A stretch of 22,886 nucleotides of DNA from contig DDHX01000028.1 of assembly GCA_002338255.1 (NCBI GenBank), positions 54,213-77,098 on the forward strand, given 5' to 3'. The stretch comes from Ruminococcaceae bacterium UBA1865. Its GTDB lineage: Bacteria; Bacillota; Clostridia; Oscillospirales; Acutalibacteraceae. A program made the position numbers and the translations under genes. This document shows, in pieces, positions 2,278 to 17,119 of the stretch (positions within the stretch are counted from its first letter, which is position 1; every line of letters begins with the position of its first letter). The notes under the pieces were generated by a model. That model saw only the letters and a list, made by a program, of their open reading frames with translations. It did no database searches and was not told where the DNA came from.

Positions 2278-3189
2278 CTAATTTTTTGTGCTGCCGCTTA
2301 GATATTTTAGAATTTCAGCAGTTGACGGCAAAATTAGAGTAGTATTTTTGTCAATTGTTTTTTGATAGGTTTCAAGAGTTCGGATGAATTCATAGAACTT
2401 GGGATCCTTTTGGAATGCTGCTCCATAAATCTGAATTGCCTTGGCGTCGCCCTCACCCTTGATCTGTTGTGCCTGCTTATTGGCTTCGGATAAAATAATT
2501 TTCTGCTCCTTATCGGCGTTTGCGCGGATCTTTGTTGCTTCCTCACTGCCTTCCGAGCGGTATTTTTGCGCCATTTGCTCACGTTCCGCCTTCATACGGT
2601 CATACACACTCTTTTTGTTGGCTTCCGGGAAATTGAGGACGCGAACCTGTGCATCGACAACCTCGATGCCATATTCCCGCGCACGCTCTTTTGCATAGGA
2701 CACCGTGCTCCCCAGCATCGTGTCAAGCTGCAACTTTTTTGTGTCCACGTTTACAAGCTGATCAAGGCTATACTTGCCCATCTGAACACCGAGGCTGGAA
2801 GAAAAAACATCCAGAAGACGGGCTTCCGCGCCGATTTTATCCTTAACCGTTTTCAAATAGAGAACGGGATCCGCTATTTTCCATGTCCCATAATAATCGA
2901 TGGAGACGCTTTTTTTATCCAGGGTTAAAAGTTCAATGGAATTCGTTTTATACACCTGAATACGCTTGTCTAGGCGCTGCACAGATTGAAGCGGGTCTGG
3001 CAGTTTTACCCTAAGCCCTGGCTGGTCGACCGTAACCACCGGGTCGCCGAATTGCGTGACCACGGCATATTCCGTCACATCGACTTTGTAAATAATCAGT
3101 GTCAGAAACAGAAGAATAACAGTCAAAAAAGCTCCCAAAACAATCTTTTTATTCAGTTTGTGTCCTGAAACGGTTTTTGTCATTTCCAT
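2278..3189 (-). CDS. hflC: SPFH-domain protein, HflC
   Basis: 303 residues: a short N-terminus, one membrane segment (about 15-35), then an SPFH domain beginning VDVTEYAVVTQFGDP, with a basic, Glu/Ala/Gln-rich coiled-coil region around residues 195-255. The length and short tail fit HflC rather than HflK. HflC pairs with HflK in the inner-membrane complex that modulates FtsH. The ATG at 3189 overlaps the stop of the upstream CDF-HflK gene by one base (TAATG). Its Shine-Dalgarno GGAGGA lies inside the end of that gene, so translation is probably coupled and the two products made in fixed proportion. An ATG two codons later (3183) is a possible alternative start. Confidence 0.93.
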   Translation of the reverse strand: MEMTKTVSGHKLNKKIVLGAFLTVILLFLTLIIYKVDVTEYAVVTQFGDPVVTVDQPGLRVKLPDPLQSVQRLDKRIQVYKTNSIELLTLDKKSVSIDYYGTWKIADPVLYLKTVKDKIGAEARLLDVFSSSLGVQMGKYSLDQLVNVDTKKLQLDTMLGSTVSYAKERAREYGIEVVDAQVRVLNFPEANKKSVYDRMKAEREQMAQKYRSEGSEEATKIRANADKEQKIILSEANKQAQQIKGEGDAKAIQIYGAAFQKDPKFYEFIRTLETYQKTIDKNTTLILPSTAEILKYLSGSTKN

Positions 3190-4798: not shown

Positions 4799-7051
4799 TT
4801 ACTTTTTATTCTGTTCTTTCAGAAGTCTCCGCAGCGTTTTATCGTATAGGGTGAATTTTGCGTTTTTCAACAGTGCCTGTTCCATTTCGGATTCAAGCTT
4901 ACTGTGCTTTTGTTCGCTGAGATATTCTTTTATGCTCTCAGTCGATTCCTGATAAGTCTTCTGACGTTCTTTCGTTCGCTCAAGCACCTTTATAATATAA
5001 AATCCGTAATTATAGTCAATGATATCGCTCGTTCCGCCAACTTTGAGATTAAAGGCTACAGTTCCTAATTTTTCGGGAAGGTAGTTCTGATAATATACAT
5101 CGTCTATTTTTCCGCCAGAGCTAGCGGTGGCATCCTCCGAATATTTTTTGGCAACCTCGGCAAAGTTTGTGCCTTTGTTCAGTAAAGAAAGGGCTTCGGA
5201 GGCTTTCTTTTTGGCCTGCTCCGCCTTTTCTCCGTTTTGGCCCTGATCGATCCAGATTAAACTGATTCGGACGCCAACGGGGACAAGAAAGTCTTTTTTA
5301 TTCTGTTCGTAGAACTTTTTTATTTCCGCTTCCGTCGGATTAGCCAGTTTATCGTCCACATCTTGTTTATGAAGGATTTGAGCAAGGTATTGAATTTTCA
5401 ATTCGTCATAACTGTGCTGCGCCGTTTTATCGGAACTGTTGTCACTGGTTTTTTCCAGCAAAAGCTCTTTTGCAATCAGTTGTTGAACCAATTGCTGCTT
5501 TTTCTCAAACGTCGAAAACTGATCCTGATATTCGGGAGAAAGCTCCTGAAACTCTGTATAAAAATCTCCGATTGTATACGTCTTACTGTGGACGCTAAAC
5601 AGCGCCTCAGTTTTGCGGGTCTTATATTCTTTATCCATATTGCTTTTCAGAATTACCGCCCGTATCGCTGACTGTACTTCCGAAAGCGGCCTGGTACCAG
5701 CTTTTGACGTACTGACCAGCTTAAGGATGCTGTATGACCCGTCTGTATTTTTGATGGGATCACCGATATCACCTGGCTGCATTTTCCATATGGCGGCTTC
5801 GGTTGCCGCGCTGCCCGCTCCCTTTTCAAGCGAAAGCTTATTTGCCTTCCCGCCAAGGCCGTAGGATGCAGCCACGCTGTCAAAGTTTTCCCCGGAACGA
5901 ATTTTGCGGATTGCCTCTGTAGCCTTGCTTTGCGCGTCTCCACCCGAAATTTTAATTTCAAGGGTCTCGGCTTTTTCAGCAACCTTATATTTGGACAAGT
6001 TTTGGTTATAATAGGCGGAAATTTCCTCCTCCGTAGGCTCCGTTACTTTCAAAAGGTCAAAATTTACCTGCAGACCCGCGGTTTGCTTGAGCTTCTCGAT
6101 ATAAGTGCCGAGGAAGTCCTCGTCTTTTTTGGACACCAGAATATTTCTTATTTCGCTTTCCACCTCGGCCAGGGATTTTCCCTGATAGGTTTGCCGGTTA
6201 TTGTCATAGTATTGCTGAACTTCCCAACTTGATATGGATTCCGGCTTGATTTCTTCTTGATGAAGCTGATCAATCAGCTGATTGACATTTGCGTTGTCCA
6301 GCAAATCTTTAATTCCGTGCTGAACGTCGCCGCGTTGCGTAACACCCTTTGATGCGGCCTGCTTCTGAATAATCTGCTCCACAGCAAGATTGGTTGCCAG
6401 CTGACGATATCCTTCAATACTGTCGATTGGGTGCGCTTCACATTTTTCATCCGGAGTACATTTTGTGTGATCATATCCATGTTTGTCGCAGGCCTCATGT
6501 TCGGTTTCTTTTGCCTCCTCCAAAGCGATAAAACTCTTGAGTTCTTCTATCGTAATATTTTTCCCATTATAGGAAGCCACTACATCCTCCCCCGGAGGCA
6601 TAGGCTCTGTCAGATACGGTAAAACATAGGCTCCTGCAGCCAAAATCAAAACAGCCGAACCGATTATAATAATTTTTTTTGCCCTTGGCTTTCTGTGCGT
6701 AACTGCAGCATCGACAGGAAAACAGGCTTCTTTATTGGCAAAACCGGTTTCCGCGATAATATCCTCCGCATTATCTGATGGCAGGCCGTTTTCCGTATCG
6801 TCTGCTTTGACAACGGAACCTACCGAGACCGAAGGATCAGAAATCGCAGGAAGATTCGAGGATACCGTATCATCAGTCGGTGTCAGGGATTCAGAAGGCA
6901 ATTTTTCCGCTGCACTTTTCTTAAATCCCAAAACATGCATCAAATCCGAAATAGCGGATCCTTTGTCAGCCTGGGTGATATCGGTTTCTTCCTTTGGTTT
7001 TTCAAAAGAAGGGTCTGAGTTCATTTCTTCATTTTCGTTACTGCTGTTCAA
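4799..7051 (-). CDS. Membrane-anchored peptidyl-prolyl isomerase/foldase with two parvulin-type domains and a Cys/His cluster
   Basis: I place the start at the TTG at 7051, which has GGGGAGG 8 bases upstream. The in-frame ATG at 7084 has no ribosome site and lies about five bases after the expected transcription start. That gives 750 residues (numbered from the TTG): an acidic cytoplasmic N-terminus of about 120 residues, one membrane helix (about 124-146), then an external part with SurA/PrsA-like N-domain sequence and two PpiC-like segments (roughly 350-450 and 585-690; the second has the clear parvulin pattern around SEDATASSGGKI). Just after the membrane helix is a dense cluster H185, C188, H191, H195, C198, C204, H207, a likely metal site. 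Parvulins assist folding of exported proteins. It is the first gene of the SPFH operon. The PPIase family call is strong. The first domain may lack activity, and metal binding is inference. Confidence 0.87.
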   Translation of the reverse strand: MNSSNENEEMNSDPSFEKPKEETDITQADKGSAISDLMHVLGFKKSAAEKLPSESLTPTDDTVSSNLPAISDPSVSVGSVVKADDTENGLPSDNAEDIIAETGFANKEACFPVDAAVTHRKPRAKKIIIIGSAVLILAAGAYVLPYLTEPMPPGEDVVASYNGKNITIEELKSFIALEEAKETEHEACDKHGYDHTKCTPDEKCEAHPIDSIEGYRQLATNLAVEQIIQKQAASKGVTQRGDVQHGIKDLLDNANVNQLIDQLHQEEIKPESISSWEVQQYYDNNRQTYQGKSLAEVESEIRNILVSKKDEDFLGTYIEKLKQTAGLQVNFDLLKVTEPTEEEISAYYNQNLSKYKVAEKAETLEIKISGGDAQSKATEAIRKIRSGENFDSVAASYGLGGKANKLSLEKGAGSAATEAAIWKMQPGDIGDPIKNTDGSYSILKLVSTSKAGTRPLSEVQSAIRAVILKSNMDKEYKTRKTEALFSVHSKTYTIGDFYTEFQELSPEYQDQFSTFEKKQQLVQQLIAKELLLEKTSDNSSDKTAQHSYDELKIQYLAQILHKQDVDDKLANPTEAEIKKFYEQNKKDFLVPVGVRISLIWIDQGQNGEKAEQAKKKASEALSLLNKGTNFAEVAKKYSEDATASSGGKIDDVYYQNYLPEKLGTVAFNLKVGGTSDIIDYNYGFYIIKVLERTKERQKTYQESTESIKEYLSEQKHSKLESEMEQALLKNAKFTLYDKTLRRLLKEQNKK

Positions 7052-7095
7052 TTGGCAAACCTCCCCACAGATAAGTAAAGACATTTCATTATTTA

Positions 7096-7127
7096 ATTAT
7101 AGGAAAAAATGTGGTAATTTTATGGTG
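7096..7127 (-). promoter_or_regulatory. Promoter of the foldase/SPFH operon with a two-half-site box at the -35 position
   Basis: On the minus strand CACCATAAAATTACCAC (7127 to 7111) holds two CACCAT-like half-sites 11 bp apart. A perfect TATAAT (7101 to 7096) begins 15 bp after the start of the second half-site. There is no good TTGACA, as expected for an activator-dependent promoter. The same arrangement occurs at 8704-8736 and 16962-16994. Transcription would start near 7089, which supports the TTG start at 7051 for the foldase. Confidence 0.65.
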
Positions 7128-7240
7128 ATACGAATAGTTGCTCCAACGAAAAGAAAAACTAACACGAGTAGTAACAGCAATATCCATTTTGCGTTGTTTA
7201 ATGTAACTCTATTATTTCGATTCTTTTCACAGTATGACAT
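7097..7240 (-). CDS. Possible small single-pass membrane peptide (47 aa)
   Basis: An ORF runs from the ATG at 7240, inside the last codons of the DUF1624 gene (stop 7227-7229), to a TAA at 7097. The product has a polar, basic N-terminus (about residues 1-18, with NRNNR), one very hydrophobic helix (about 19-34, rich in Leu/Val/Phe) and a short basic tail. The overlap with the upstream gene would allow translational coupling. I see no convincing Shine-Dalgarno site, and the 3' end of the ORF coincides with the promoter box of the next operon. It may therefore be a chance ORF. I do not recognise the sequence. Confidence 0.3.
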   Translation of the reverse strand: MSYCEKNRNNRVTLNNAKWILLLLLVLVFLFVGATIRITIKLPHFFL

Positions 7241-7934
7241 TAAATATAAGCCAGAATAAACCCAAAAGCAGTGGTTGATGTACTAGAAAAACCCACAGTG
7301 TATGTCTCCCCAAGAAATTTATAAAAGGACACTCGAAATTGTACACCCATTGCGGCGTTTGATGCTTAAGCAAAGGCTCCGTCAGATATGTTCCGAAAAA
7401 AAACGCAAATATCCACGGAATTAAGGGATAATAATCGGCACTTATAAAATCATTTGAAATCAAACCAAACGGAAAAAGATACACCGAATCAAGGTTAATA
7501 GGAAATATTTGATTTGTAATTAAAAACAGGGCAGCAAAGAGTAGTAATGCAATATTGCGAGGAATCGCAATTAGGGCCTTTTTACAAAATGCTGCCATCA
7601 GCATGGCAGTCCCCATAAAGTGCAAAATGCCAAAACGGATAGGGAATTCTGGCGTGACAAAAAGCGTCAAAATCGAGACATCCAACGCTATAGCAAGAAC
7701 TTTCAGCCCGTTCCGTATCGGATTATAAGATAAATTGGTTGAAATACCTGAAATGATGATAAATGCAAGCGCGAAAACCGTTCGTATTAATTTGAACATT
7801 TCTGTATCCAAAAAAGGAATTTTCATATTGTAAAATGCGGTGAGATCAAACGCAGCATGGTGTGCTATCATGCCAACTATTGCCACACCGCGAATAAAAT
7901 CCAACAGATGTATGCGTTCTACTCCATTTTTCAA
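7227..7934 (-). CDS. DUF1624 / heparan-alpha-glucosaminide N-acetyltransferase-like multi-pass membrane protein
   Basis: 235 residues with about seven membrane segments. The N-terminus R7-I-H-L-L-D12-F-I-R-G followed by H25-H26 and D30 matches the opening of the DUF1624/YeiB-like acyltransferase group. The C-terminus GRHTLWVFLVHQPLLLG is the matching final signature. Related proteins move acetyl groups across a membrane onto sugars, but the bacterial DUF1624 members are uncharacterised and the substrate here is unknown. The start is a TTG at 7934, with AGGAGG nine bases upstream. The gene lies downstream of a strong terminator, so it probably has its own promoter in 7945-8010, but I could not pick a convincing one. 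Its last codons overlap a possible 47-residue ORF. The family call is good; function is open. Confidence 0.8.
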   Translation of the reverse strand: MKNGVERIHLLDFIRGVAIVGMIAHHAAFDLTAFYNMKIPFLDTEMFKLIRTVFALAFIIISGISTNLSYNPIRNGLKVLAIALDVSILTLFVTPEFPIRFGILHFMGTAMLMAAFCKKALIAIPRNIALLLFAALFLITNQIFPINLDSVYLFPFGLISNDFISADYYPLIPWIFAFFFGTYLTEPLLKHQTPQWVYNFECPFINFLGRHTLWVFLVHQPLLLGLFWLIFNVIL

Positions 7935-8011
7935 AAGAATCAGCCTCCTGATTGGAAGATTTTTTGGGAAACAACGGGTTCAAGGATCAGCATTCACATT
8001 GCATCTCGCAA

Positions 8012-8058
8012 ATAAAAAACTCCCGCATCTGCTCAGTTGTAGATGTGGGAGCTTTTTT
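8012..8058 (-). terminator. Rho-independent terminator after the lipoprotein gene, probably bidirectional
   Basis: An 11-bp stem pairs CTCCCGCATCT (8020-8030) with AGATGTGGGAG (8041-8051), with one G-T pair and a 10-base loop. On the minus strand it is followed by TTTTTTATT, and on the plus strand by six T. It lies 13 bp after the lipoprotein stop. Confidence 0.85.
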
Positions 8059-8070
8059 GAAATGAGAAAA

Positions 8071-8652
8071 CTATTTTGAGCTACTTGAAAGGCCGCTCTC
8101 ATTGGATGCAGGTGCAATTATATCGGAAGCTAATTTTTCGTTGTTACTTACAACTGCAATTGATTTCACGGTGTTTCCAGACATTTGCACATTAAGAATA
8201 TCACCAATCTTAATATCGGAAGGAGTACCTGATTTCCCTGATTTCAGAGTAATGTTGGTGCTTTTTACGACTTCTATTTTTCTTTCATCTCCTGTTGGGG
8301 TATATGAGGGTTTACCGCCAGCGGAAGAAGGAGCAGTAGATTGCATTTCTGAAGCTTTACTTGAGGGTTTGGTATCGCTTTTGTTATCAGAGGAGGAACT
8401 GTCACTTGTTTCTGCTTCACTGGCAGCTTCATTTTTAGTAAGCAATGAAAGCGTTATTATGTCATCACTAATATTAGACACTTTGCCCATTATTGTAATT
8501 TCACCAGCGGCATCGCTCGACTGCGGATTTATATTGCTGGTAACAATACTATCACCGCTAGATACAGCCTTGTCCGATAACGGATTGCTGCATCCTGAGA
8601 ATGTTAAGATAAGTAGAACCGATAAAACCATTATGACTGCTTTTTGTTTCAT
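8071..8652 (-). CDS. Serine-rich lipoprotein with a C-terminal beta-type domain
   Basis: 193 residues. The N-terminus is a lipoprotein signal: MKQK, a hydrophobic core, then the lipobox FSGC with C21 as the lipidated residue. Residues about 50-70 (ITIMGKVSNISDDIITLSL) and about 120-168 (ERKIEVVKSTNITL ... KIGDILNVQMSGNTVKSIAVV) look like strands of one small beta-barrel domain, similar in style to DUF5666-type domains. They are separated by a low-complexity Ser/Asp/Ala/Lys insert (about 72-115). AAAGGTGA precedes the ATG by four bases. The gene follows the histidine kinase but has its own promoter with the shared two-half-site box, and it ends at a strong terminator. It is therefore likely an output, or an accessory sensor, of the adjacent two-component system. 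Lipoprotein status is secure; ligand and function are unknown. Confidence 0.8.
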   Translation of the reverse strand: MKQKAVIMVLSVLLILTFSGCSNPLSDKAVSSGDSIVTSNINPQSSDAAGEITIMGKVSNISDDIITLSLLTKNEAASEAETSDSSSSDNKSDTKPSSKASEMQSTAPSSAGGKPSYTPTGDERKIEVVKSTNITLKSGKSGTPSDIKIGDILNVQMSGNTVKSIAVVSNNEKLASDIIAPASNESGLSSSSK

Positions 8653-8703
8653 AAAATCACCTTTCAGTTAATATTTTGCTTCGGAGTGAAGCGGAATAAA
8701 GAT

Positions 8704-8736
8704 ATAATAGCTGAAAAATATGGTGATTTTATGGCG
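8704..8736 (-). promoter_or_regulatory. Promoter of the lipoprotein gene with the shared two-half-site box
   Basis: On the minus strand CGCCATAAAATCACCAT (8736 to 8720) gives two half-sites 11 bp apart. Sixteen bases after the start of the second half-site comes TATTAT (8709 to 8704) as -10. The box begins two bases after the stop codon of the histidine kinase. It matches the box at 7111-7127 in 14 of 17 positions and the box at 16978-16994 in 14 of 17. Confidence 0.65.
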
Positions 8737-8737
8737 T

Positions 8738-10132
8738 TCATTTCCCATCAGGCAGCGAAACAATGAAGACGGATCCTGACCCAACTCTACTTTCAGCAGA
8801 TATTGTGCCGCCATGAGCTTCAACAATTGCTTTGGTAATGGAAAGTCCGATCCCCATTCCTGCGTTTGAATGGCAGCGAGACTTATCAACACGATAGAAC
8901 CGTTCAAAAATATGCCGCAAATCCGACTGGGGAATACCGATCCCATTATCACGGATACGTAGAATAATATTATGTGGGAATTTTTCGTACTCGACTGAAA
9001 CAAATCCCCCTGTCTCCGTATGTTTAATAGAATTGGAAATCAGATTCGTTATGCACTGCTTTATCTGATACATATCTCCGAATACCGGAGCGGGAACCTG
9101 GACTTTCTTCAATAACTTAATTCCTTTATTTTTTGAAGCGATTTGGAAATCTTCAAAAAGCAAGTCGCATAATTCAGAGAAGTCGAAGGATTCTTTTGTT
9201 AAGAACATCTGTTTATTTTCCAGAAGATTAAGCTTCTGTAATTGATCTACAATCTGAGTGAGCCTTAAAATCTCTGTATGGCAGTTTTGAAGCCTTTCTG
9301 CTGTTGGTTCCAGCACCTGATCGATCATGGCTTCTATGTTCCCCAAAAGATTAAATAAAGGCGTTCTGAGTTCATGAGCCACATCGGCGGTGATTTGTTT
9401 TTTCTGCTGTTCTTTGATAGCCAGCGCCTGTGACATCTCGTTGATCGAGTCAATCAAATCGGTTGTTTCACGGGTGGTAGAGGATTCTTTCACCTGAGTT
9501 CCGTAATTTCCATCCGCAATTTTCTTTGACGTACGGATCACGTTCGTGATCGGGGCAGAAATTCGCATTGCCATAATAATACCCAGTAAAACCGCTATCA
9601 CCAAAAATATCGTTCCCAGCAGTGCAAGTGCTCGATTTAACGATTGAATAAGCAACAATTCATTATCACTTAGAGAATATGGTCCATAGTATCCAATCGT
9701 AAGATACCCAATCAATTTGCTGTCATATTTCAAATCATAGGTATTTTCGGCATACCCTCCCTTAAAATCGGGATATCGGCTGTGCATATTCTTTTCCGCA
9801 TGCTGTAGAAGTACCTGACACTCCTGAACTTTGTGCTGTCGGATATCCCAATCAATCTCATTATTAAGCGTTCTCACATGCACCATGATTTCATTTTGCA
9901 GAGCTGCATTTGCAATTACTTCAAGGCCTTCCACATTATAAGTTCCGGTTTTTTTGAGATATTGTTGATTGACTTGGGCGATTATTTCCTGAATCTGTTT
10001 TTTTTGCTGATCTATTGCATACTGCTGAAATATCTTGTCAATGGACATATTAAAAAGTATACTGAGTGAAGCGACAATCATCAGAGATATAATTGTGTAG
10101 GTAATTATTAATTTGCCCTTTAATGTATTCAT
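8738..10132 (-). CDS. Two-component sensor histidine kinase (HAMP, HisKA, HATPase; BaeS/PhoR-like layout)
   Basis: 464 residues. Two membrane helices (about 8-29 and 168-187) enclose an extracytoplasmic sensor region of about 140 residues that I cannot assign to a named family. A HAMP linker follows (about 188-240). The HisKA dimer domain carries the phospho-acceptor H253 in DVAHELRTPL. The ATP-binding domain has the N box (N367), D395-N-G-I-G, F409ERFYRVD and GMGIGL (425-430). All catalytic motifs are intact. The gene starts six bases after the response regulator stop with GAGG upstream, so the two are cotranscribed. The signal sensed is not evident. Position next to a metal-efflux operon and a predicted regulon of envelope genes suggests envelope or metal stress. 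Confidence 0.95.
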   Translation of the reverse strand: MNTLKGKLIITYTIISLMIVASLSILFNMSIDKIFQQYAIDQQKKQIQEIIAQVNQQYLKKTGTYNVEGLEVIANAALQNEIMVHVRTLNNEIDWDIRQHKVQECQVLLQHAEKNMHSRYPDFKGGYAENTYDLKYDSKLIGYLTIGYYGPYSLSDNELLLIQSLNRALALLGTIFLVIAVLLGIIMAMRISAPITNVIRTSKKIADGNYGTQVKESSTTRETTDLIDSINEMSQALAIKEQQKKQITADVAHELRTPLFNLLGNIEAMIDQVLEPTAERLQNCHTEILRLTQIVDQLQKLNLLENKQMFLTKESFDFSELCDLLFEDFQIASKNKGIKLLKKVQVPAPVFGDMYQIKQCITNLISNSIKHTETGGFVSVEYEKFPHNIILRIRDNGIGIPQSDLRHIFERFYRVDKSRCHSNAGMGIGLSITKAIVEAHGGTISAESRVGSGSVFIVSLPDGK

Positions 10133-10138
10133 GCCGCC

Positions 10139-10837
10139 TCACTCATCAAATTGAAATTTATATCCGGTACCATGCACCGTTATAATATATTGAGGATTTT
10201 TTCGGTCAATCTCTATTTTTGCACGTAATCCTTTGATATAAGTATCTATGCTTCGGTCAAAACCATCAAACTCATCTTCCAGCGCGTAGGAAATTAGCTG
10301 ATCCCTAGTAAATATCCGATTAGGCGCTTTGGTCATAGTACTAAGCAGCTTATATTCTGTAGGAGTCAGGTTCACAATTTCGCCTTGCTTCTTTACAATT
10401 TTACTTTGGAAGTCAATTGTTAAATAACCGTTATTGTAGGAAACGGGTATACTTACCAATTCATCACATTCCACCCGGCGCAATACGGCCTCAACTTTCG
10501 CTGCGACGATTCTCGGACTGAATGGCTTTACTAGATAATCGTCCGCACCTATGCGAAACCCTTCCAACATATCTGATTCCTGAACCTTCGCAGTCAGCAT
10601 AATGATCGGTGTTCGGGTCGTACTTCGAATTGTTTTGCAGATTTCCTCCCCTGTTATGTCAGGCAACATTAAATCTAATATCACGAGAGATATATTGTGC
10701 TTCCTGAATAACTCCAACGCATTCTTCCCGGTATGAGCAATATATACAATATATCCGTTTTTTATAAGATAAGCCTGCAAAAATTCAGTAACCATCGTTT
10801 CGTCATCAACAATTAGGATATTTCTTTCCCTTTTCAC
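10139..10837 (-). CDS. OmpR/PhoB-family response regulator
   Basis: 232 residues. The receiver domain has the acidic pair D11-D12, phospho-acceptor D55 in LVILDLMLPD, T82 and K104. The C-terminal winged helix (about 135-230) includes NLTPTEYKLL and the recognition region DRSIDTYIKGLRAKIE, ending VHGTGYKFQ. The start is GTG at 10837, with AAGGA about ten bases upstream. OmpR-type regulators bind as dimers to tandem half-sites about 11 bp apart. Three such sites with matching -10 boxes lie in this window (7111-7127, 8720-8736, 16978-16994), so this protein is the obvious candidate regulator. I found no copy of that box before its own gene. Transcription may come through the hairpin from the upstream ATPase gene or from a weak promoter within it. 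Confidence 0.95.
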   Translation of the reverse strand: MKRERNILIVDDETMVTEFLQAYLIKNGYIVYIAHTGKNALELFRKHNISLVILDLMLPDITGEEICKTIRSTTRTPIIMLTAKVQESDMLEGFRIGADDYLVKPFSPRIVAAKVEAVLRRVECDELVSIPVSYNNGYLTIDFQSKIVKKQGEIVNLTPTEYKLLSTMTKAPNRIFTRDQLISYALEDEFDGFDRSIDTYIKGLRAKIEIDRKNPQYIITVHGTGYKFQFDE

Positions 10838-10862
10838 GGCAGCTTCTTCCTTTCGTATATTA

Positions 10863-10898
10863 GTAAGGCCAAGAGTTTGGTCATACTCTTGGCCTTAC
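10863..10898 (-). terminator. Stable hairpin between the metal ATPase and response regulator genes
   Basis: A perfect 14-bp inverted repeat pairs GTAAGGCCAAGAGT (10863-10876) with ACTCTTGGCCTTAC (10885-10898) around an 8-base loop. It begins two bases after the ATPase stop and ends 25 bp before the GTG of the response regulator. On the minus strand the 3' side reads TAATATACG, not a U run, so it may be a leaky terminator, an mRNA-stabilising element or an attenuator. Confidence 0.55.
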
Positions 10899-10900
10899 CG

Positions 10901-12769
10901 TTACATGAATTTTTTTACGTTGAGTATCCGAATCGCGTTTAGGATCGCAAGCACCGCAACGCCGACATCGGCAAATACGGCAGCCCACATGGTCGCAATG
11001 CCAATGGCGCCCAGAACCAAAACCACAGCTTTTACTGATAGTGCCAAGGTAATGTTTTGTTTTACAATACGCAGAGTTTTCCTTGATACTTTCATTGCGG
11101 TGGCAATTCTGGACGGTTCGTCGGTCATAATGACCACATCCGCCGCCTCAATCGCCGCGTCCGAACCGAGTCCGCCCATTGCGATGCCGATATCGGCTCT
11201 CGCCAGAACTGGCGCATCATTGATGCCATCGCCCACAAACGCGAGTTTACCTTTCGAGGATTTCCCTGCAAAGAGTTCTTCCATCTTCTGCACTTTATCT
11301 GCGGGAAGCAGTTCGGTATAAACCTTATCAAGACCCAACTGTGCGGCTACTTTTTCACCGATCCGCTTTGCATCTCCGGTCAACATGACTGTCTGTTTGA
11401 TCCCCGCTGCCTTCAGATCACGAATAGCTTCCGCTGAGTCCTCCTTAATTTCATCTGCGATAACGATATATCCCTTGTAGATGTTGTCGATTGCGACATG
11501 AACGACCGTCCCAACAACGTCATCAGGCTCCTGAAATGAGGTATTAAGCTTCCTCATCAGTTTGGCGTTGCCGGCAGCTACGGCTTTGCCGTCAATCTTT
11601 GCTACGACGCCGTGACCGGAAATTTCTTCAACATCTGAAATGCGCGCGTTGTCGATTTCCTTACCATATGCCTGCTTCAGCGAAAGAGAGATGGGATGGT
11701 TGGAGTAACTTTCCGCATACGCGGTCATTTCCAGAAGTCCTTCCTTGGAAATGTCATCGGGTATAACCTCCTGAACCTTAAACACACCTTTCGTCAATGT
11801 TCCCGTTTTGTCAAACACGACAATCTCGGTTTCAGCCAACGCCTCCAGATAATTGCTCCCCTTAACAAGGATACCTCTTTTGGACGCGCCGCCGATTCCT
11901 CCAAAAAAGCTTAGAGGAATGGAAATAACAAGGGCGCATGGGCACGAAATTACGAGGAAGACGAGCGCCCTGTAAAGCCAGTCACTGAATACCGCGCCCG
12001 GTACCACAAGAGGGGGTATAATCGCAAGCAGCGCTGCCACAATTACGACGGCCGGGGTATAATAACGCGCAAACTTTGTAATAAAGTTTTCAGAGTTTGA
12101 TTTTTTGCTGCTGGCGTTTTCAACAAGATCAAGAATTTTGCTGACAGTGGATTCGCCATACTCCTTGGTCACGCGCGCGGTGATAAGTCCGTTTATATTA
12201 ATACAGCCGCTTAAGAGATTATCGCCCGGAGCGATTTCCCGGGGTACTGATTCACCGGTCAGCGCAGATGTGTCCACCATGGAGTTTCCTTCAATGACCT
12301 CCGCGTCAAGAGGAATCTTTTCACCGGCTTTGACAACGATGACATCTCCGATCTTCACCTCGTCGGGATCAACTTTTTCCAGTGCCTCGCCGCGCTGCAC
12401 ATTAGCATAGTCGGGACGTATATCCATAAGGCTTGCAATGGACTTTCTAGAACTATCCACGGCGTAGCTTTGGAACAACTCGCCGACCTGATAGAACAGC
12501 ATAACGGCGACGCCTTCCGCATAGTCTCCAATGGAAAACGCACCGATTGTTGCGATGCTCATCAGAAAGTTTTCATCAAATACCTGTCCGTGAAAAATAT
12601 TTTTTATCGCTTTTAATACAATATCTCCGCCGATAATAATAAAAGCGGCTAAAAATATAATAAGGGAGACAATGTTGTTATCTGTTTTATATAGAATTCC
12701 GAAAGCATACACCGCCGCGCCAATCAAAATTCTCAGCAGTTGCTTTTGGTTTGAATTCAGCTTTTTCAT
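10901..12769 (-). CDS. cadA: P1B-type Zn/Cd/Pb-transporting ATPase (CadA/ZntA family)
   Basis: 622 residues with the full P-type ATPase core: T171GES actuator motif, CPC metal motif (C276-P-C278) in the membrane, D320KTGTLT phosphorylation site, the H358-P359 soft-metal signature and GDGINDAP (513-520). K580 and D601 in the last membrane helices match the residues that mark the Zn/Cd/Pb subgroup (P1B-2), not copper pumps. The enzyme exports divalent soft metals using ATP. There is no N-terminal metal-binding domain, which instead is a separate small protein encoded upstream. AAGGAG lies ten bases before the ATG. The HMA gene, a 12-bp hairpin and this gene form a unit controlled by an ArsR-type operator at 13184-13203. 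The subgroup is well supported; the preferred metal cannot be read from sequence. Confidence 0.95.
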   Translation of the reverse strand: MKKLNSNQKQLLRILIGAAVYAFGILYKTDNNIVSLIIFLAAFIIIGGDIVLKAIKNIFHGQVFDENFLMSIATIGAFSIGDYAEGVAVMLFYQVGELFQSYAVDSSRKSIASLMDIRPDYANVQRGEALEKVDPDEVKIGDVIVVKAGEKIPLDAEVIEGNSMVDTSALTGESVPREIAPGDNLLSGCININGLITARVTKEYGESTVSKILDLVENASSKKSNSENFITKFARYYTPAVVIVAALLAIIPPLVVPGAVFSDWLYRALVFLVISCPCALVISIPLSFFGGIGGASKRGILVKGSNYLEALAETEIVVFDKTGTLTKGVFKVQEVIPDDISKEGLLEMTAYAESYSNHPISLSLKQAYGKEIDNARISDVEEISGHGVVAKIDGKAVAAGNAKLMRKLNTSFQEPDDVVGTVVHVAIDNIYKGYIVIADEIKEDSAEAIRDLKAAGIKQTVMLTGDAKRIGEKVAAQLGLDKVYTELLPADKVQKMEELFAGKSSKGKLAFVGDGINDAPVLARADIGIAMGGLGSDAAIEAADVVIMTDEPSRIATAMKVSRKTLRIVKQNITLALSVKAVVLVLGAIGIATMWAAVFADVGVAVLAILNAIRILNVKKFM

Positions 12770-12795
12770 AATGTAACTACTCCTTTTATTGAACT

Positions 12796-12835
12796 ACAAG
12801 CACAAAATGATCATAAATGGCCGTTTTGTGCTTGT
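12796..12835. other. Intercistronic hairpin between the HMA and ATPase genes
   Basis: A perfect 12-bp inverted repeat pairs ACAAGCACAAAA (12796-12807) with TTTTGTGCTTGT (12824-12835) around a 16-base loop. On the minus strand it is followed by AGTTCAATAAAAGGAG, not a U run, and on the plus strand by TTT. It lies inside the cad operon and may set the ratio of chaperone to ATPase by processing or partial termination. Confidence 0.5.
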
Positions 12836-12889
12836 TTTACAGATAAGAATAACGCATAAGTATTAATAAAAGGTTGAAATTTCCTAAAC

Positions 12890-13111
12890 TTAAGCCTTCT
12901 TTACGACTACATCCGGCTCCAACTTTTTGACAATATTATGTGCAGATTTGACAATTTCATCGATTCTCGCGTCATCGCCCTCAATTATCATTTTCGTAGT
13001 CATGAAGTTAACAGACGCCGAGGTAACGCCGTCCAGTTTCTTCACAGCGTTTTCAATTTTTGCCGCGCAATTCGCGCAGTCCAGTCCCTCAAGTCTAAAT
13101 GTTTTTTTCAT
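12890..13111 (-). CDS. HMA-domain metal-binding protein (metallochaperone-like)
   Basis: 73 residues, essentially one heavy-metal-associated domain with the motif G9-L-D-C12-A-N-C15 in the first loop. The start is placed at the ATG at 13111 because AGGAGG sits eight bases upstream; the ATG two codons earlier (13117) is only two bases from it. The Asp before the first Cys is typical of HMA domains serving zinc/cadmium pumps, as in ZntA. The domain is normally the N-terminus of a P1B ATPase and here is encoded separately just upstream of a pump that lacks it, so it most likely hands metal to that pump. It is the first gene of the ArsR-controlled operon. Confidence 0.9.
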   Translation of the reverse strand: MKKTFRLEGLDCANCAAKIENAVKKLDGVTSASVNFMTTKMIIEGDDARIDEIVKSAHNIVKKLEPDVVVKKA

Positions 13112-13149
13112 TATCATTGCCTCCTGTCTTATTATTGAAGTCGAAGATC

Positions 13150-13169
13150 AATTGAGCCAATCTTCAACT
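13150..13169. promoter_or_regulatory. Second, weaker ArsR-type operator downstream of the cad promoter
   Basis: AATTGAGCCAATCTTCAACT matches the main cad operator in 14 of 20 positions and lies 34 bp from it. The 12-base word TTCAACTGTCAA is directly repeated at 13163-13174 and 13197-13208. Two sites could allow cooperative binding. Confidence 0.45.
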
Positions 13170-13178
13170 GTCAAATAC

Positions 13179-13208
13179 ATTATAGTTGAGTAATCGTTCA
13201 ACTGTCAA
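13179..13208 (-). promoter_or_regulatory. Promoter of the HMA-cadA operon
   Basis: On the minus strand a perfect TTGACA (13208 to 13203) and a perfect TATAAT (13184 to 13179) are 18 bp apart. The ArsR-type operator fills the spacer. Confidence 0.85.
13184..13203. promoter_or_regulatory. ArsR/CadC-type operator of the cad operon
   Basis: AGTTGAGTAATCGTTCAACT is an inverted repeat lying exactly between the -35 and -10 boxes, so a bound repressor would block RNA polymerase. Read on the minus strand it equals the operator of the second ArsR gene (17072-17091) in 18 of 20 positions. It is released by metal in CadC/SmtB-type systems. Confidence 0.8.
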
Positions 13209-13209
13209 G

Positions 13210-13336
13210 ACCTTTTTGATACATTTAAGAAAATTTTTTATGTATAAGCCATACCAGAGCTAAATATGGAGGACTTTTACAAAGAGATATACGGTAATTC
13301 ATGGTACTTCAAATGATCGGATTAACTTGTTACAAG
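13210..13336. other. Stretch with no recognisable gene between the cad promoter and a hairpin
   Basis: No gene is supported here. The only start with a reasonable look is ATG at 13267 on the plus strand, giving a 16-residue peptide (MEDFYKEIYGNSWYFK) with no separate ribosome site. It faintly resembles the start of a sigma-factor-like protein and may be a remnant or chance. The stretch is followed by a plus-strand U-tailed hairpin. Confidence 0.4.
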
Positions 13337-13380
13337 GACAGCCGAATATGCATAGTACATTGCGTATCCGGCTGTCTTTT
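13337..13380 (+). terminator. Hairpin with U tail downstream of the antiporter gene
   Basis: GACAGCCG (13337-13344) pairs with CGGCTGTC (13369-13376). Inner pairing of ATATGC (13346-13351) with GCGTAT (13362-13367) extends the stem. The plus strand continues TTTT. It may act in both directions and serve the antiporter gene on the minus strand, although the minus-strand 3' side is U-poor. Confidence 0.55.
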
Positions 13381-13486
13381 AAGATTTGTAGCTTTGTAGA
13401 AAGCCCTTAAACAGCTTTACTTTTTCAGCCCATGGGAATTTATCTATGAAAAACCTCCTTATGCTGATTACTAGACTGATTGCATA

Positions 13487-14884
13487 TTAGCAAATCAAAA
13501 ATCCGGCAATAATATAGCCGATCACCGACAGCGTAGCCCCTGCTACTACATAAGGTAAAGTGGTAATAAAATGTTTCGCATAAGGAATTTCTGCCATTTC
13601 TGCAGCGATGGGAGAAACGACATCAGTAACGGCCCCACCCGCCCATACAGTACCTGCCATAATTGCAATGTCGATACCGGAACCAATGAAAAATGTCGCC
13701 GCCAACGGGATCATCAAGGACCAGGTTGCCCAAGAGGAACCTATCATATAGGAAATAACCGCCGAAATGAGAAAGAGAATCGCCGGTATCAGAGGCCTGG
13801 GCATGCTGGCAATTAAATCGCTGCTGATCAGCTTGTTAAAGCCCAGATCCTGCGTAATTCTCGTGAGTACCCAGCTCAGCAGCAAAATAATGACTAAGGA
13901 CAGGACCTTTTCTCCACCCTTAACGATATGAGCTTGTATCTCGGCGAGGCTAATTTTTTGAAATAGATAAAAAACACTTGATAAAAATATCGAGAGAAAT
14001 GCTCCGGCGAAAATGGATACGTTAAAATCCGCATTGCTTAACGCCCCCAGAAATGAAGAAGATTTATCTCGACCCGTCCACCAAAAAAGGAATACAGTAC
14101 TTGCGATTAGAATAACAACTGGCACAATCAGGTTCATAGCTCTTTGTGGATATTCTTCAACTTGCTTATCCTCAAGCTTTTCTTTCTCGATATGTGCTTG
14201 AGTCAATTCCTCATTTAGTGCTTTACCAAACTTGATTTTGCCGAAACCAAGAGAAAAGAATGTGACTCCCAATGCCAGTAAGATCATAGACATTGAGAAA
14301 AAGTTCCATAATATGCTCCTTGCAACTATCCGATACGCACTGTCGTGAATACTAATACTCCTCATGTTAGCAGCTACTAGAGAGACCATATATCCGATAT
14401 TGGCCGACGCAACGGGAATCAATAAAATGAGCTGCAAGCTTGTAACCGAAAGAATGAAAGCAAATTTCTCTTTTGAAGCCTTTACTTTGTCCAAGAACGG
14501 GTTCATTACGGTTCCGACCGCTATAAAGTGAAAGGAACTATTAAAAAAGGTCGGCAAGCTCAGTCCCCAACTCCATCCAAGCACACCTTTCTCACTTTTT
14601 ATCCTTTTCTCCAGCATTCGGCTGAAACCCGCAATACCGCCGGCCATCGAAATCAATTCTGAAAGCGAGCCGTATAGAATCAGAAAACTTAGAGAATAGG
14701 CGCTTCCCTTATCTGATAGCACCTCTACAATATACTTGCCGATTGACATTATCCCATCTATGATAGATTTTGCGTTGAGCAATGTTCCAACAACGATTCC
14801 CGTGAGAAGGGCTGGAATCAGTTTTTTTGTTCTAAATGTTATGATAATTGTTACCAGGGCCGGTATAACAGACAGCCATTGCAT
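13487..14884 (-). CDS. NhaC-family Na+/H+ antiporter (or related organic-acid/ion exchanger)
   Basis: 465 residues with about eleven or twelve membrane helices. Family features include the N-terminal FRTKKLIPALLTGIVVG, the mid-protein SLPTFFNSSFHFIAVGTVM, and the C-terminal GSSWATWSLMIPLA with AGTVWAGGAVTDVVSPIA, which hold the polar residues expected within helices of the NhaC/ion-transporter group. AAGGAGG lies six bases before the ATG. Members exchange sodium for protons or couple organic acids to sodium (MleN-type), and the substrate here cannot be chosen from sequence. It stands alone between the cad operon and the divergent arsR gene. I see no ArsR-type operator oriented to it except the arsR1 site about 200 bp upstream, which could in principle affect both. 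Confidence 0.85.
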   Translation of the reverse strand: MQWLSVIPALVTIIITFRTKKLIPALLTGIVVGTLLNAKSIIDGIMSIGKYIVEVLSDKGSAYSLSFLILYGSLSELISMAGGIAGFSRMLEKRIKSEKGVLGWSWGLSLPTFFNSSFHFIAVGTVMNPFLDKVKASKEKFAFILSVTSLQLILLIPVASANIGYMVSLVAANMRSISIHDSAYRIVARSILWNFFSMSMILLALGVTFFSLGFGKIKFGKALNEELTQAHIEKEKLEDKQVEEYPQRAMNLIVPVVILIASTVFLFWWTGRDKSSSFLGALSNADFNVSIFAGAFLSIFLSSVFYLFQKISLAEIQAHIVKGGEKVLSLVIILLLSWVLTRITQDLGFNKLISSDLIASMPRPLIPAILFLISAVISYMIGSSWATWSLMIPLAATFFIGSGIDIAIMAGTVWAGGAVTDVVSPIAAEMAEIPYAKHFITTLPYVVAGATLSVIGYIIAGFLIC

Positions 14885-15057
14885 ATAATCCCTCCTTATG
14901 GAATATTTTCCCCAGCCATTTCAATAATATCATTAATACGGAAAGAATTAGTGCGCTTTTTTCTCAGCAAAACATCAGTCTCCTTCCTATGGTGTTAACT
15001 AGCGATGCTGGGTTACATTGGGGCATTATGCTGCAGTTCCATGGAAAACATCCCATA

Positions 15058-15085
15058 TTGACAAACATGGTCAAAAAGGTATAAT
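15058..15085 (+). promoter_or_regulatory. Promoter of the first arsR gene
   Basis: A perfect TTGACA (15058-15063) and a perfect TATAAT (15080-15085) are separated by 16 bp. The ArsR-type inverted repeat follows directly. Confidence 0.85.
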
Positions 15086-15087
15086 TT

Positions 15088-15107
15088 AGTTGAATAAATA
15101 AACAACT
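15088..15107. promoter_or_regulatory. ArsR-type operator before the first arsR gene
   Basis: AGTTGAATAAATAAACAACT has arms AGTTG and CAACT, two bases after the -10 box, so it would cover the transcription start. It matches the operator at 17072-17091 in 16 of 20 positions. Autoregulation is likely. Confidence 0.7.
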
Positions 15108-15134
15108 GAATGAAGATAAAGGAGGCTGTTGCCT

Positions 15135-15500
15135 ATGAAACCCTATATTCCTGATATCGATAAATGCGATTGCACGATAATACATGAAGATGTCGTCCAA
15201 GCTGTTCGAAGTCAAATGCCAGATGAGGAAAGTCTTTTGGATCTTGCGGATTTATTCAAAGTTTTCGGAGATTCAACCAGAGTAAAAATACTTTGCGCCT
15301 TATTTGAATCGGAAATGTGCGTTTGTGACATTGCCGCGCTGCTGGGAATGAGCAAATCGGCAATTTCTCATCAACTTCGTATTTTGAAAGAATCCAATCT
15401 CATCAAAAATCGTAGAGATGGGAAGGTCGTTTATTATTCACTTAATGACGACCATGTAAAAAATATTTTTGACCAAGGCTTGGCTCATGTATCTGAATAA
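15135..15500 (+). CDS. ArsR/SmtB-family metal-sensing repressor, CadC-like (first copy)
   Basis: 121 residues from the ATG at 15135, chosen because GGAGG lies nine bases upstream; a TTG two codons earlier is too close to it. The winged-helix core shows D46STRVKIL and the recognition helix SKSAISHQLRIL. Metal ligands typical of CadC are present: N-terminal C11-D-C13 and C62-V-C64-D in the DNA-binding region (the alpha3N or CadC-type thiolate site). The C-terminal D-D-H ... H-V-S-E residues correspond to the alpha5 site. It likely senses Cd, Pb or Zn and leaves DNA when metal binds. It has its own promoter and operator and is followed by a terminator, so it is probably transcribed alone and autoregulated. 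Confidence 0.93.
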   Translation: MKPYIPDIDKCDCTIIHEDVVQAVRSQMPDEESLLDLADLFKVFGDSTRVKILCALFESEMCVCDIAALLGMSKSAISHQLRILKESNLIKNRRDGKVVYYSLNDDHVKNIFDQGLAHVSE

Positions 15501-15577
15501 ATTTTTCATTAATTGGTTTACAGCTCAACTAACTTTTTAAAGGAATGGTTACGGCTTACACCGCTTGTGTCTTTGAA

Positions 15578-15606
15578 GAGAGGAAGGAACTCCTCTCGGA
15601 TTTTTT
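15578..15606 (+). terminator. Terminator of the first arsR gene
   Basis: A 7-bp stem GAGAGGA/TCCTCTC (15578-15584 with 15591-15597) and 6-base loop are followed by GGA and six T (15601-15606). Confidence 0.75.
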
Positions 15607-15685
15607 CCAAGGAAGAAAGTAATCCCGACAAAGCAGCAGATCAAAAAGAATTGATCCTTGAAAATGCGGTGAAAATAATTAAAAC

Positions 15686-15752
15686 AAAACATCCCTTTGC
15701 TTTTGATGAGGCTGGTAAGCCTGAATCAATCTTAAGCAAAGGGATGTTTTTT
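15686..15752. terminator. Long hairpin, probable terminator of the kinase gene, bidirectional
   Basis: Perfect 17-base arms at 15686-15702 and 15734-15750 (core ACATCCCTTTGCTT) enclose a second hairpin with TTGAT/ATCAA and AGGCT/AGCCT stems. The plus strand ends in six T. The minus strand continues GTTTTGTTTTAATT, placing it as the terminator of the kinase gene whose stop is at 15802. The 301-bp gap 15501-15801 holds only this and the smaller terminator. Confidence 0.75.
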
Positions 15753-15801
15753 GTGTCAAAAGTATTTAACTTCTACGATTCCGAATGCAAAATTAGAAGT
15801 T

Positions 15802-16533
15802 TTATATATGCGATTTATTATAGCCAAAGGACTGAATAAAATCATTTTTAACTTCTTCAATGCAAATGTAAGGTTCCTCGAGGCGCAACAGCTTTTTAAG
15901 GAACATCTTCTGTTCCGGGGAAAGGTCTAGTTCATTATACCATGCGAGTCTTTTTCCCTTTTTGGGTTTGTGTGACGAGTATAATAGATACAGGAAAAAA
16001 TCTCCCAAATATGAAAAATCAATTCCGTATGTGCAACGGACAAAATCACCCCGCCTTGACAGGCCAAAATCAATCAGATAGACAACACCATTATCAATCA
16101 GCACATTTGGCAGCCGTATGTCTCCGTGAATAATACCTTTATTATGAAGATATGAAATGATATCGATCAACTGAGAGATTATCTTGAAAATCTCACTGTG
16201 AGTAAAGCGATGCTTTTGTTTAAAAAGCAAGGATTCTACGGTATCTCCCGGTTTTTTCTCCAATACAAAGCCGTAGAAATCTTTTTCATGAACGACGCCT
16301 AATAACTTCGGAACGGCTATGTGACTGATTTGTGACAGGGCAACCGCTTCCATGGCGATTCTCTCTTTGTTTCCTTTTATGGAGGCTGGTTTGAAGCGTT
16401 TGATGATTACCCGTGCGCCACAGTTGGAATGTGCAAGAAAGCAAATCCCATATCGGCCCTCTCCAACATCTTTTTCTATTACATAATCTCCGTATTTCCT
16501 GCCTGAGTGTTTTATATGATGCAGCCAAAGCAT
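15802..16533 (-). CDS. Small eukaryotic-like protein kinase
   Basis: 243 residues, soluble, with a near-complete kinase fold: G-loop G24EGRYG, lysine K45 in VIIKRF, glutamate E62, catalytic loop H136-G-D138-I-R-L-P-N143 and D155-F-G. HGD replaces the common HRD, and R140 stands where most Ser/Thr kinases have lysine, so the protein may be an atypical kinase. The C-terminal lobe is short, and there is no membrane helix or PASTA domain, unlike PrkC-type kinases. The ATG lies three bases after the stop of the zinc ribbon gene, so the two are cotranscribed and probably translationally coupled. The target is unknown; the neighbour is a natural first candidate as partner or substrate. Confidence 0.87.
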   Translation of the reverse strand: MLWLHHIKHSGRKYGDYVIEKDVGEGRYGICFLAHSNCGARVIIKRFKPASIKGNKERIAMEAVALSQISHIAVPKLLGVVHEKDFYGFVLEKKPGDTVESLLFKQKHRFTHSEIFKIISQLIDIISYLHNKGIIHGDIRLPNVLIDNGVVYLIDFGLSRRGDFVRCTYGIDFSYLGDFFLYLLYSSHKPKKGKRLAWYNELDLSPEQKMFLKKLLRLEEPYICIEEVKNDFIQSFGYNKSHI

Positions 16534-16536
16534 AAA

Positions 16537-16878
16537 TCAACCGTTTGCTTTTTTTCCGCAATTCATGCAAAACTTTGCGTTTGGCAGCAGCGCCTGGCCG
16601 CAGCCTAAACATAGGCCAATTTTTACCATTTCACCGCATTCCAAACAAAATTTAGAACCTGCGGGTATCCTTGCACTGCACTTGCCGCAAATTGTGGCAG
16701 CCTGATTTGGCAAAGTATTATTCTGCGGCGGGTAAAAACCATTTTGATGGTGAGAATGACTCCCTGATCCCATCATACCCACCAGGTTTCCCAGGAAGCC
16801 CTTCCTCTGATAATACCCGCTTCCAAAATTCCCGTTTCTATAATGGTGGTCTCTCGATGAACGTGAAAACATACCCAT
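16537..16878 (-). CDS. Double zinc ribbon protein with a basic, His-rich N-terminus
   Basis: 113 residues. The C-terminal half has two zinc ribbons: C64-x2-C67 with C78-x2-C81, and C90-x2-C93 with C104-x2-C107. The N-terminal 60 residues are low-complexity, rich in Gly, Ser, Tyr, Asn and His with several Arg, including HSHHQNG, and look disordered. GGAGGAG lies five bases before the ATG. The upstream promoter carries the same two-half-site box as the foldase operon and the lipoprotein gene, and the next gene is a kinase. Zinc ribbons of this kind mediate protein or nucleic-acid contacts, but no function can be assigned. In a metal-stress setting the zinc sites might also sense metal load; that is speculation. 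Confidence 0.82.
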   Translation of the reverse strand: MGMFSRSSRDHHYRNGNFGSGYYQRKGFLGNLVGMMGSGSHSHHQNGFYPPQNNTLPNQAATICGKCSARIPAGSKFCLECGEMVKIGLCLGCGQALLPNAKFCMNCGKKANG

Positions 16879-16961
16879 TTTTTCTCCTCCTTATAGATAT
16901 TTTAAATACTCTGAGGTCAATTCTCTGCCAATATCATGGTCTGATAAAAGTTACTACATGA

Positions 16962-16994
16962 ATTATACAAAGTAATTATGGGGATTTTATGATG
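16962..16994 (-). promoter_or_regulatory. Promoter of the zinc ribbon-kinase operon with the shared two-half-site box
   Basis: On the minus strand CATCATAAAATCCCCAT (16994 to 16978) has two half-sites 11 bp apart. TATAAT (16967 to 16962) begins 16 bp after the start of the second half-site. The AAAAT core is identical in all three boxes of the window. Confidence 0.65.
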
Positions 16995-17031
16995 AATTAC
17001 ATATAGCAATTTTTCTGTGACGATTCTCTTC

Positions 17032-17071: not shown

Positions 17072-17091
17072 AGTTGAATGATTATTCAACT
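17072..17091. promoter_or_regulatory. ArsR-type operator before the second arsR gene
   Basis: AGTTGAATGATTATTCAACT is a nearly perfect 20-bp palindrome with one mismatched pair. It is the best-conserved of the ArsR operators here and nearly identical to the cad operator (18 of 20 on the opposite strand). Confidence 0.82.
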
Positions 17092-17119
17092 AATAACTCT
17101 GCGCATAGGAGGTACTTCC

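Follow-up and report, generated by a model that had tools for sequence, protein, structure and literature searches.

Tandem half-sites laid over the −35 region at a fixed distance from the −10 hexamer are the promoter layout of PhoB-type class II activation. The present text deals with a layout of this kind in a stretch of 22,886 nucleotides from Ruminococcaceae bacterium UBA1865 (contig DDHX01000028.1, positions 54,213 to 77,098), here called the window, in which three putative promoters carry one box, TCnCCAYA-AAA-TCnCCAYA, and an OmpR-family response regulator is encoded next to a sensor histidine kinase. Besides PhoB, the described systems closest to this locus are the two-component systems CpxAR, CssRS, CutRS, CusRS and CopRS, and the repressor CsoR. 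For CutR, the published motif is TAWATAAA (PMC12802291). A study of gut Firmicutes presumes CsoR to be the only regulator of copper in Clostridiales and counts CopA, HMA-DsbD and DUF2318 genes among the inferred targets of its regulon (PMC4938975).

The three boxes are confirmed by observation, and the regulon built on them is well supported by comparison of sequences. It is very probable that the regulator encoded in the window binds at these boxes; it would activate, in class II fashion, a set of quality-control genes in answer to a copper-like or thiol signal.

The three boxes and their conservation in relatives

The box consists of two direct 8-bp half-sites with a period of 11 bp and measures 19 bp overall (Table 1). 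The original prediction had pointed to three 17-letter sequences that agree with one another in 13–14 positions, contain half-sites 11 bp apart and precede a TATAAT-like −10 element without a consensus −35, and a direct reading of the sequence bears this out: the coordinates and the minus strand are as claimed, the agreement counted by eye is 14/17 for boxes 1 and 2, 13/17 for boxes 1 and 3 and 14/17 for boxes 2 and 3, and the 11-bp spacing holds in all three. The −10 elements lie 8–9 bp past the end of the 19-bp box, the predicted 15–16 bp corresponding roughly to a count that begins close to where the second half-site starts, and the hexamer at a spacing of 17 bp consists of the box letters ATAAAA in place of TTGACA. 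All three boxes stand outside the main genes, although intergenic DNA makes up about 12% of the window according to the gene list drawn up here.

A scan of the window by itself is weak evidence when taken alone, with 8 matches at up to 3 mismatches where 2.9 are expected, and for this reason the promoters of relatives were used. Scanning genome contigs for the fusion of a cation diffusion facilitator (CDF) domain with HflK gave 36 loci, mostly of the Clostridia type, with others in Desulfosporosinus, Anaerospora, Synergistaceae, Actinomycetota and Poribacteria; in many of them the foldase, CDF-HflK, HflC and HflK genes follow in this order, with a kinase, regulator or metal ATPase nearby. A matrix was trained on 13 foldase promoters from 12 other genomes (L014 and L020 belong to one genome), with the window excluded. 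Near-duplicates and loci cut before the promoter were left out (L007, L008, L011, L012, L016, L017, L021, L022, L025, L028, L030, L031, L034 and L036), and so was L015, whose box was found later inside a mechanically over-long frame. In the window this matrix scores box 3 at 22.8, box 1 at 22.3 and box 2 at 16.9, followed by a site at 11.6, while about 0.02 matches scoring at least 16 are expected per window.

Since the training sites had first been located with the window's own consensus, unsupervised motif discovery was added. Expectation-maximization, seeded from each position of the upstream DNA of L003 and run on the 250-bp upstream regions of the same promoters, returned the motif TCCCCATAAAATCCCCACATTT with a total log-odds of 399.7, against 185.6–192.4 in six shuffles that were given fewer iterations. 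This motif places box 1 first in the window (25.6), box 3 second (24.5) and box 2 third (20.2), the next site scoring 9.4. Across 300 surrogates of the window generated by a Markov model, the highest best score was 20.0 and the highest third-best 11.7; by these maxima box 2 alone (16.9) is not decisive and the trio is.

Absence of the box upstream of orthologous genes had been set beforehand as grounds for refutation. All 13 foldase promoters, from 12 clade genomes, carry it with 0–4 mismatches of 19 (4 in L002 and L004), which favours the foldase-CDF/HflK-HflC-HflK operon as a target. At eight loci where the operon is accompanied by distant regulators only (L019, L023, L024, L026, L027, L029, L032 and L033), no site is better than 5 mismatches; of their genomes, G015 (L019) has no regulator, and G016 and G017 (L023, L024) have 49%-identical regulators in a separate tree group. 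A regulator match at E ≤ 1e-60 was found in 11 of the 12 training genomes. In G010 the regulator is a contig-edge fragment only, and the match in G001 is the copy of a copper cluster, the copy beside the foldase being cut by the contig end. In a midpoint-rooted tree the foldase-linked regulators form a group of their own (18 rows plus L160, 99/93), and the remaining 40 rows fall outside it.

At 2 mismatches a genome scan is mostly noise (109 sites against 65 in the reversed control for 14 clade genomes, and 30 against 30 for three other genomes). At 0–1 mismatches the 14 clade genomes contain 25 sites, 20 of them at regulon promoters; four of the remaining five (G012:C18, G010:C112, G010:C156, G009:C19 and G002:C25) overlap an open reading frame (ORF) on either strand. 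No site at 0–1 mismatches was found in the clade genomes G008 and G014, whose foldase boxes score lower.

Box, regulator and promoter geometry across Clostridia

It had also been proposed that the regulator of the window controls all three promoters, a claim that gains support from the conservation described above and from the joint occurrence of box and regulator across 391 genomes. These belong to the class of G007 (the Flavonifractor genome of L008; class Clostridia in NCBI), and up to seven candidate regulators were scored in each at a cut-off of E ≤ 1e-68. A strict box pattern occurs at 50 sites in 44 of the 391 genomes, against 15 sites for the reversed control, and the regulator occurs in 46; the box is present in 19 of these 46 and in 25 of the 345 others (odds ratio 9, Fisher p 1e-8). 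Box and regulator gene lie within 10 kb of each other in 12 of the 19 genomes that have both, or in 13 of 23 when four genomes with a regulator at E ≤ 1e-55 are added.

The geometry of the promoters was evaluated in 53 aligned sites (3 from the window, 28 from relatives' loci and 22 from the class-level set). The other 28 of the 50 class-level sites have no downstream target or are duplicates, and a site in L057/L122 that falls within ORFs or lies antisense to them was also omitted; L191 2672+ was kept although it heads no identifiable gene. A sigma-A-like −10 stands exactly 9 bp past the box in 46 of the 53 sites and at 8 bp in one, box 1 of the window, whereas random positions have a −10 at 8–9 bp in 2.8% of cases (ties went to 9 bp in search and control alike). 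A −35 at normal spacing would land on the AT letters between the half-sites. When all 50 class-level sites are considered, TAnnnT at 8–9 bp is found at 21 of 25 in regulator-positive and 6 of 25 in regulator-negative genomes (p 4e-5), and three of those six belong to G446, G403 and G326, which have a regulator at E ≤ 1e-55.

Some promoters hold more than two half-sites: three or four in 11-bp register occur at L010:7670-7699, L133:1501-1541 and L009:7698, which suggests extended regulator arrays. Close divergent box pairs were seen between the foldase and M23-LysM-G5 genes (L005:6842/6850 and L006:6847/6855) and next to a regulator operon that includes an HMA gene (L191:2646/2672).

The original prediction had not included the main class of boxed genes in other Clostridia. 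Regulator-positive genomes account for 25 of the class-level sites; at 15 of these, spread over 12 of the 19 genomes, the gene behind the box is of copper/thiol type according to Pfam: FtrD-like at seven, HMA-DsbD with or without a cupredoxin domain at four, an HMA-bearing P-type ATPase, which we take to be CopA-like, at three, and HMA at one. The other ten head a VanW gene (one), a small membrane protein (one), the foldase and M23 genes of G007 (two) or no identifiable gene (six). In L206 the box precedes the FtrD-like, HMA-DsbD-cupredoxin, HMA-ATPase, regulator and kinase genes, in this order, and L207 and L208 look similar. The clade genome G001 has a cluster (L110:5877-13460) in which a CsoR-family gene, an HMA-ATPase and a second pair of regulator and kinase of the family described here come after a boxed HMA-DsbD gene; CsoR and the box-linked system may thus share targets. 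Membrane proteins of the DUF6803 family turn up repeatedly behind the box or next to the regulator-kinase pair (L134:1583-2059, L124:1344-1829, L207:9472-9966) and are candidates for a metal or envelope function.

A paralogous OmpR-family regulator or another transcription factor, with the neighbouring pair as a bystander, is an improbable binder: many first-look regulator candidates exist per genome, and four of the 25 box-bearing genomes that lack the regulator at E ≤ 1e-68 have one at E ≤ 1e-55, in three cases far from the box, but the frequent proximity of box and regulator, the boxes that head the regulator's own operon in several genomes, the missing −10 geometry at 19 of the 25 sites in regulator-negative genomes and the eight boxless operon loci all speak against it. 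ArsR-type binders were set aside because ArsR operators are inverted repeats and the ORF lists of the sister clusters L206 and L208 show no ArsR gene. The rigid 9-bp distance between box and −10 would also suit a core-promoter element of an alternative sigma factor; this explanation is very unlikely and was rejected, given that the −10 is sigma-A-like (TATAAT/TATACT), that the box is a tandem 11-bp repeat over 19 bp, and that extra units in register (L010 7670/7681, L133 1501/1512) suit a tandem-binding activator. As for a chance similarity of AT-rich promoter DNA, with which the unremarkable loose scan of the window would agree, it is contradicted by the independent motif discovery and the surrogates and has practically no probability left.

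Several observations weigh against binding by the regulator of the window. The gap between positive and negative loci is narrow (at most 4 against at least 5 mismatches), and the genome-wide regulator search covered three of the eight negative loci. In the class-level set, 27 of the 46 regulator-positive genomes have no exact match to the pattern, and the 25 box-bearing genomes without the regulator count on the same side. An order-level set is uninformative to negative: the box (up to 1 mismatch) was found in 15 of 147 genomes, the regulator (E ≤ 1e-60) in six and both in one, so that a single regulator-positive genome has the box and 14 regulator-negative genomes have one each, with 16 box sites against 24 in the reversed control. 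Within the window, the first half-site of box 2 is degenerate. As regards the proposed signal, the matrix scan of the window finds no boxed copper gene, the neighbouring P-type ATPase being unboxed. Finally, the lipoprotein stands as a predicted target as far as the site itself and the recurring position of a box shortly behind the kinase gene (L003, L013, L018, L020, L204) are concerned, but no orthologue of it was found among the relatives' loci examined.

Genes of the window and the signal

The features of the window are listed in Table 1. Among the best 25 of 103 NCBIfam rows for the regulator none reaches its cut-off, VanR included (bits/cut-off: CreB 198.6/273, PhoB 186.8/296.2, BaeR 185/380, CpxR 131.9/341, cztR_silR_copR 150.9/279.2), and the kinase stays below that of cztS_silS_copS (201.2 of 292.6 bits).

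Table 1. Coordinates of the boxes, −10 elements and genes discussed in the text.
Feature	Position	Strand	Remarks
Box 1	7110..7128	minus	TCACCATA-AAA-TTACCACA; putative promoter of the foldase operon
−10 of promoter 1	7096..7101	minus	TATAAT, 8 bp past box 1
Box 2	8719..8737	minus	ACGCCATA-AAA-TCACCATA; right behind the kinase stop codon, putative lipoprotein promoter
−10 of promoter 2	8704..8709	minus	TATTAT, 9 bp past box 2
Box 3	16977..16995	minus	TCATCATA-AAA-TCCCCATA; putative promoter of the zinc-ribbon/kinase pair
−10 of promoter 3	16962..16967	minus	TATAAT, 9 bp past box 3
OmpR-family response regulator	10139..10837	minus	Pfam Response_reg PF00072 and Trans_reg_C PF00486; candidate box binder
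Sensor histidine kinase	8738..10132	minus	extracellular CACHE-like domain with W95, H100, E104, C105, H111, M116
Target 1, gene 1: peptidyl-prolyl isomerase (PPIase) foldase	4799..7084	minus	Pfam rotamase
Target 1, gene 2: CDF cation-efflux transmembrane domain fused to HflK/SPFH	3189..4724	minus	
Target 1, gene 3: HflC	2278..3189	minus	
Target 1, gene 4: HflK	1060..2262	minus	
Target 1, gene 5: S11 D-Ala-D-Ala carboxypeptidase	2..1036	minus	cut by the end of the window
Target 2: lipoprotein	8071..8652	minus	no Pfam match
HGSNAT-type acyltransferase	7227..7934	minus	behind lipoprotein and hairpin; L003 orthologue directly after a box
Target 3: double zinc-ribbon protein	16537..16878	minus	Pfam
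Target 3: small Ser/Thr protein kinase	15802..16533	minus	Pfam

The start of the foldase is more likely the TTG at 7051, behind GGGGAGG, since the ATG at 7084 lies just 11 bp past the −10. The CDF-HflK fusion contains two HxxxD motifs, HSFTD and HSKMD. Between the lipoprotein and the HGSNAT-type gene, the sequence shows a hairpin with a T-run on both strands (8014-8058), likely a bidirectional terminator. A P-type metal ATPase with an SCPC motif, a separate HMA protein and two ArsR-family regulators occupy 10901-13117, 15129-15500 and 17078-17476; relatives of these genes accompany the regulator/foldase locus in many loci, and in the window the matrix scan places no box at any of them.

The original prediction had named the zinc-ribbon/kinase pair as a target, and one relative supports it: in L035 a boxed operon (matrix score 16.4) of zinc ribbon, kinase and M23-LysM-G5 is divergent from the foldase. 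In L001 the zinc ribbon and kinase come after HflK in the foldase cluster. Among the further boxed genes of relatives are the M23-LysM-G5 endopeptidase in L005 and L006 (Pfam), an S11 carboxypeptidase (L004), the HMA-DsbD gene of L110 and the HGSNAT-type gene of L003. The regulator-kinase pair is itself boxed at five promoters in two genomes (G009 and G011), in operons that begin with an NlpC/P60 gene (L020, L116 and L117; Pfam) or with a small ORF (L010 and L014).

In the proposed mechanism, the adjacent kinase would phosphorylate the response regulator, whose dimer would bind head-to-tail over the missing −35 and recruit RNA polymerase in the class II, PhoB-like manner. This would switch on the PPIase foldase, CDF/HflK-HflC-HflK, the D-Ala carboxypeptidase, the lipoprotein and the zinc-ribbon/kinase pair, that is, a set for membrane and cell-wall quality control, which in relatives would also take in wall hydrolases (M23 or NlpC/P60) and a VanW protein and would include the regulator's control of its own operon. 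In other Clostridia, the same regulator family and box would drive FtrD-like, HMA-DsbD(-cupredoxin) and CopA-like HMA-ATPase genes.

The least certain step is the signal, which would be a copper-like soft metal outside the cytoplasm or the thiol or protein damage that it causes. The sensor domain, modelled with a pLDDT (predicted local distance difference test) of 92, takes a CACHE-like shape in the broad sense only; no solved structure stands out when this model is compared with known folds, and CusS, one row among many, is no evidence for copper. Among 119 close kinases, the window's own included (46–92% identity), W95, H100, E104 and M116 never vary, while C105 is present in 117 and H111 in 116. 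Another 22 kinases, more distant and mostly copper-linked, all have C105; 19 of them have H100, 19 M116, 15 H111 and none E104, and in 17 position 112 is Met. A soft-metal or thiol signal is plausible because the sensor keeps the Cys and mostly the His, His and Met residues, and a copper-like metal or the damage that it does is the likely form because the same regulator family and box appear to drive copper-type genes elsewhere.

Alternatively, the signal might be misfolded protein outside the cytoplasm or damage to the cell wall, without any metal or thiol ligand, in the manner of CssRS or Cpx-type systems. This is a serious possibility, if the less probable one: the boxed genes in the window's clade are a foldase, HflK/C and wall hydrolases or carboxypeptidase, and E104 and partly H100 and H111 are lost in the copper-linked kinases, so that a single metal site common to all these kinases is not certain. 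What argues against this alternative is that the sister systems sit in, and are predicted to control, clusters of copper/thiol type, and that their kinases retain C105, M116 and H100 in the proportions given above. A soft-metal or thiol signal is therefore only modestly favoured over pure protein-folding or wall stress.

A broader picture, put forward tentatively and with the chances slightly against it, is that of a Clostridia-wide two-component system distinct from CsoR, in which a CACHE-like sensor built on a conserved Cys with His and Met would follow soft-metal or thiol status on the outer side of the membrane; the system would normally drive copper export (FtrD-like, HMA-DsbD-cupredoxin, CopA-like ATPase). 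In the lineage of the window the same box would now serve membrane proteostasis and wall remodelling, including a metal-efflux-HflK fusion, as a kind of clostridial Cpx wired from a copper system. The direction of such a change is not readable from the regulator tree, because its midpoint root is arbitrary.

Comparison with known systems

The stress response to which the box points is apparently undescribed. Neither box nor regulon appears in the titles or abstract beginnings of the matches listed for copper two-component systems in Clostridia, DUF2318, CutRS, or envelope stress with foldase or HflK, a search that leaves most subscription papers and preprints outside; the matches listed for HflK with cation diffusion facilitator do not describe them either, and none of these holds the latter term. 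Envelope-stress and copper regulation in Clostridia, gut commensals included, seems little mapped; with a promoter box this precise, and with a candidate regulator for it, the regulon can be predicted in their genomes. It also suggests possible roles for DUF6803, the zinc-ribbon/kinase pair and the CDF-HflK fusions, and may allow sister lineages to be compared in which the same box and regulator family control different physiology.

In its architecture the system resembles PhoB and the pho box, where tandem half-sites 11 bp apart also replace the −35, the −10 lies about 10 bp downstream and the regulator is of the winged-helix type; unlike there, the half-site is TCnCCAYA and the boxed genes are of the envelope quality control or copper/thiol type, not of phosphate metabolism. 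With CpxAR, CssRS and CutRS it would share the two-component control of extracytoplasmic foldases. CutS, too, has conserved extracellular Cys, but two of them, where the present sensor has one together with His and Met; the targets of CutR are of the HtrA type, and here a PPIase foldase goes with CDF/HflK-HflC-HflK. Nor does the box match the CutR motif (PMC12802291).

The sister clusters are reminiscent of CusRS and CopRS, in that a kinase with an extracellular sensor is encoded beside copper export genes. The corresponding families TIGR01386 and TIGR01387 are not reached at the bit scores given above, however, and the targets in the window are not copper genes. Finally, CsoR and the box-linked pair have inferred target types in common, and a CsoR-family gene lies within the L110 cluster, but CsoR is a one-component repressor with its own binding motif (PMC4938975). 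The box and its regulator-kinase pair suggest a second copper regulator beside CsoR in Clostridiales.

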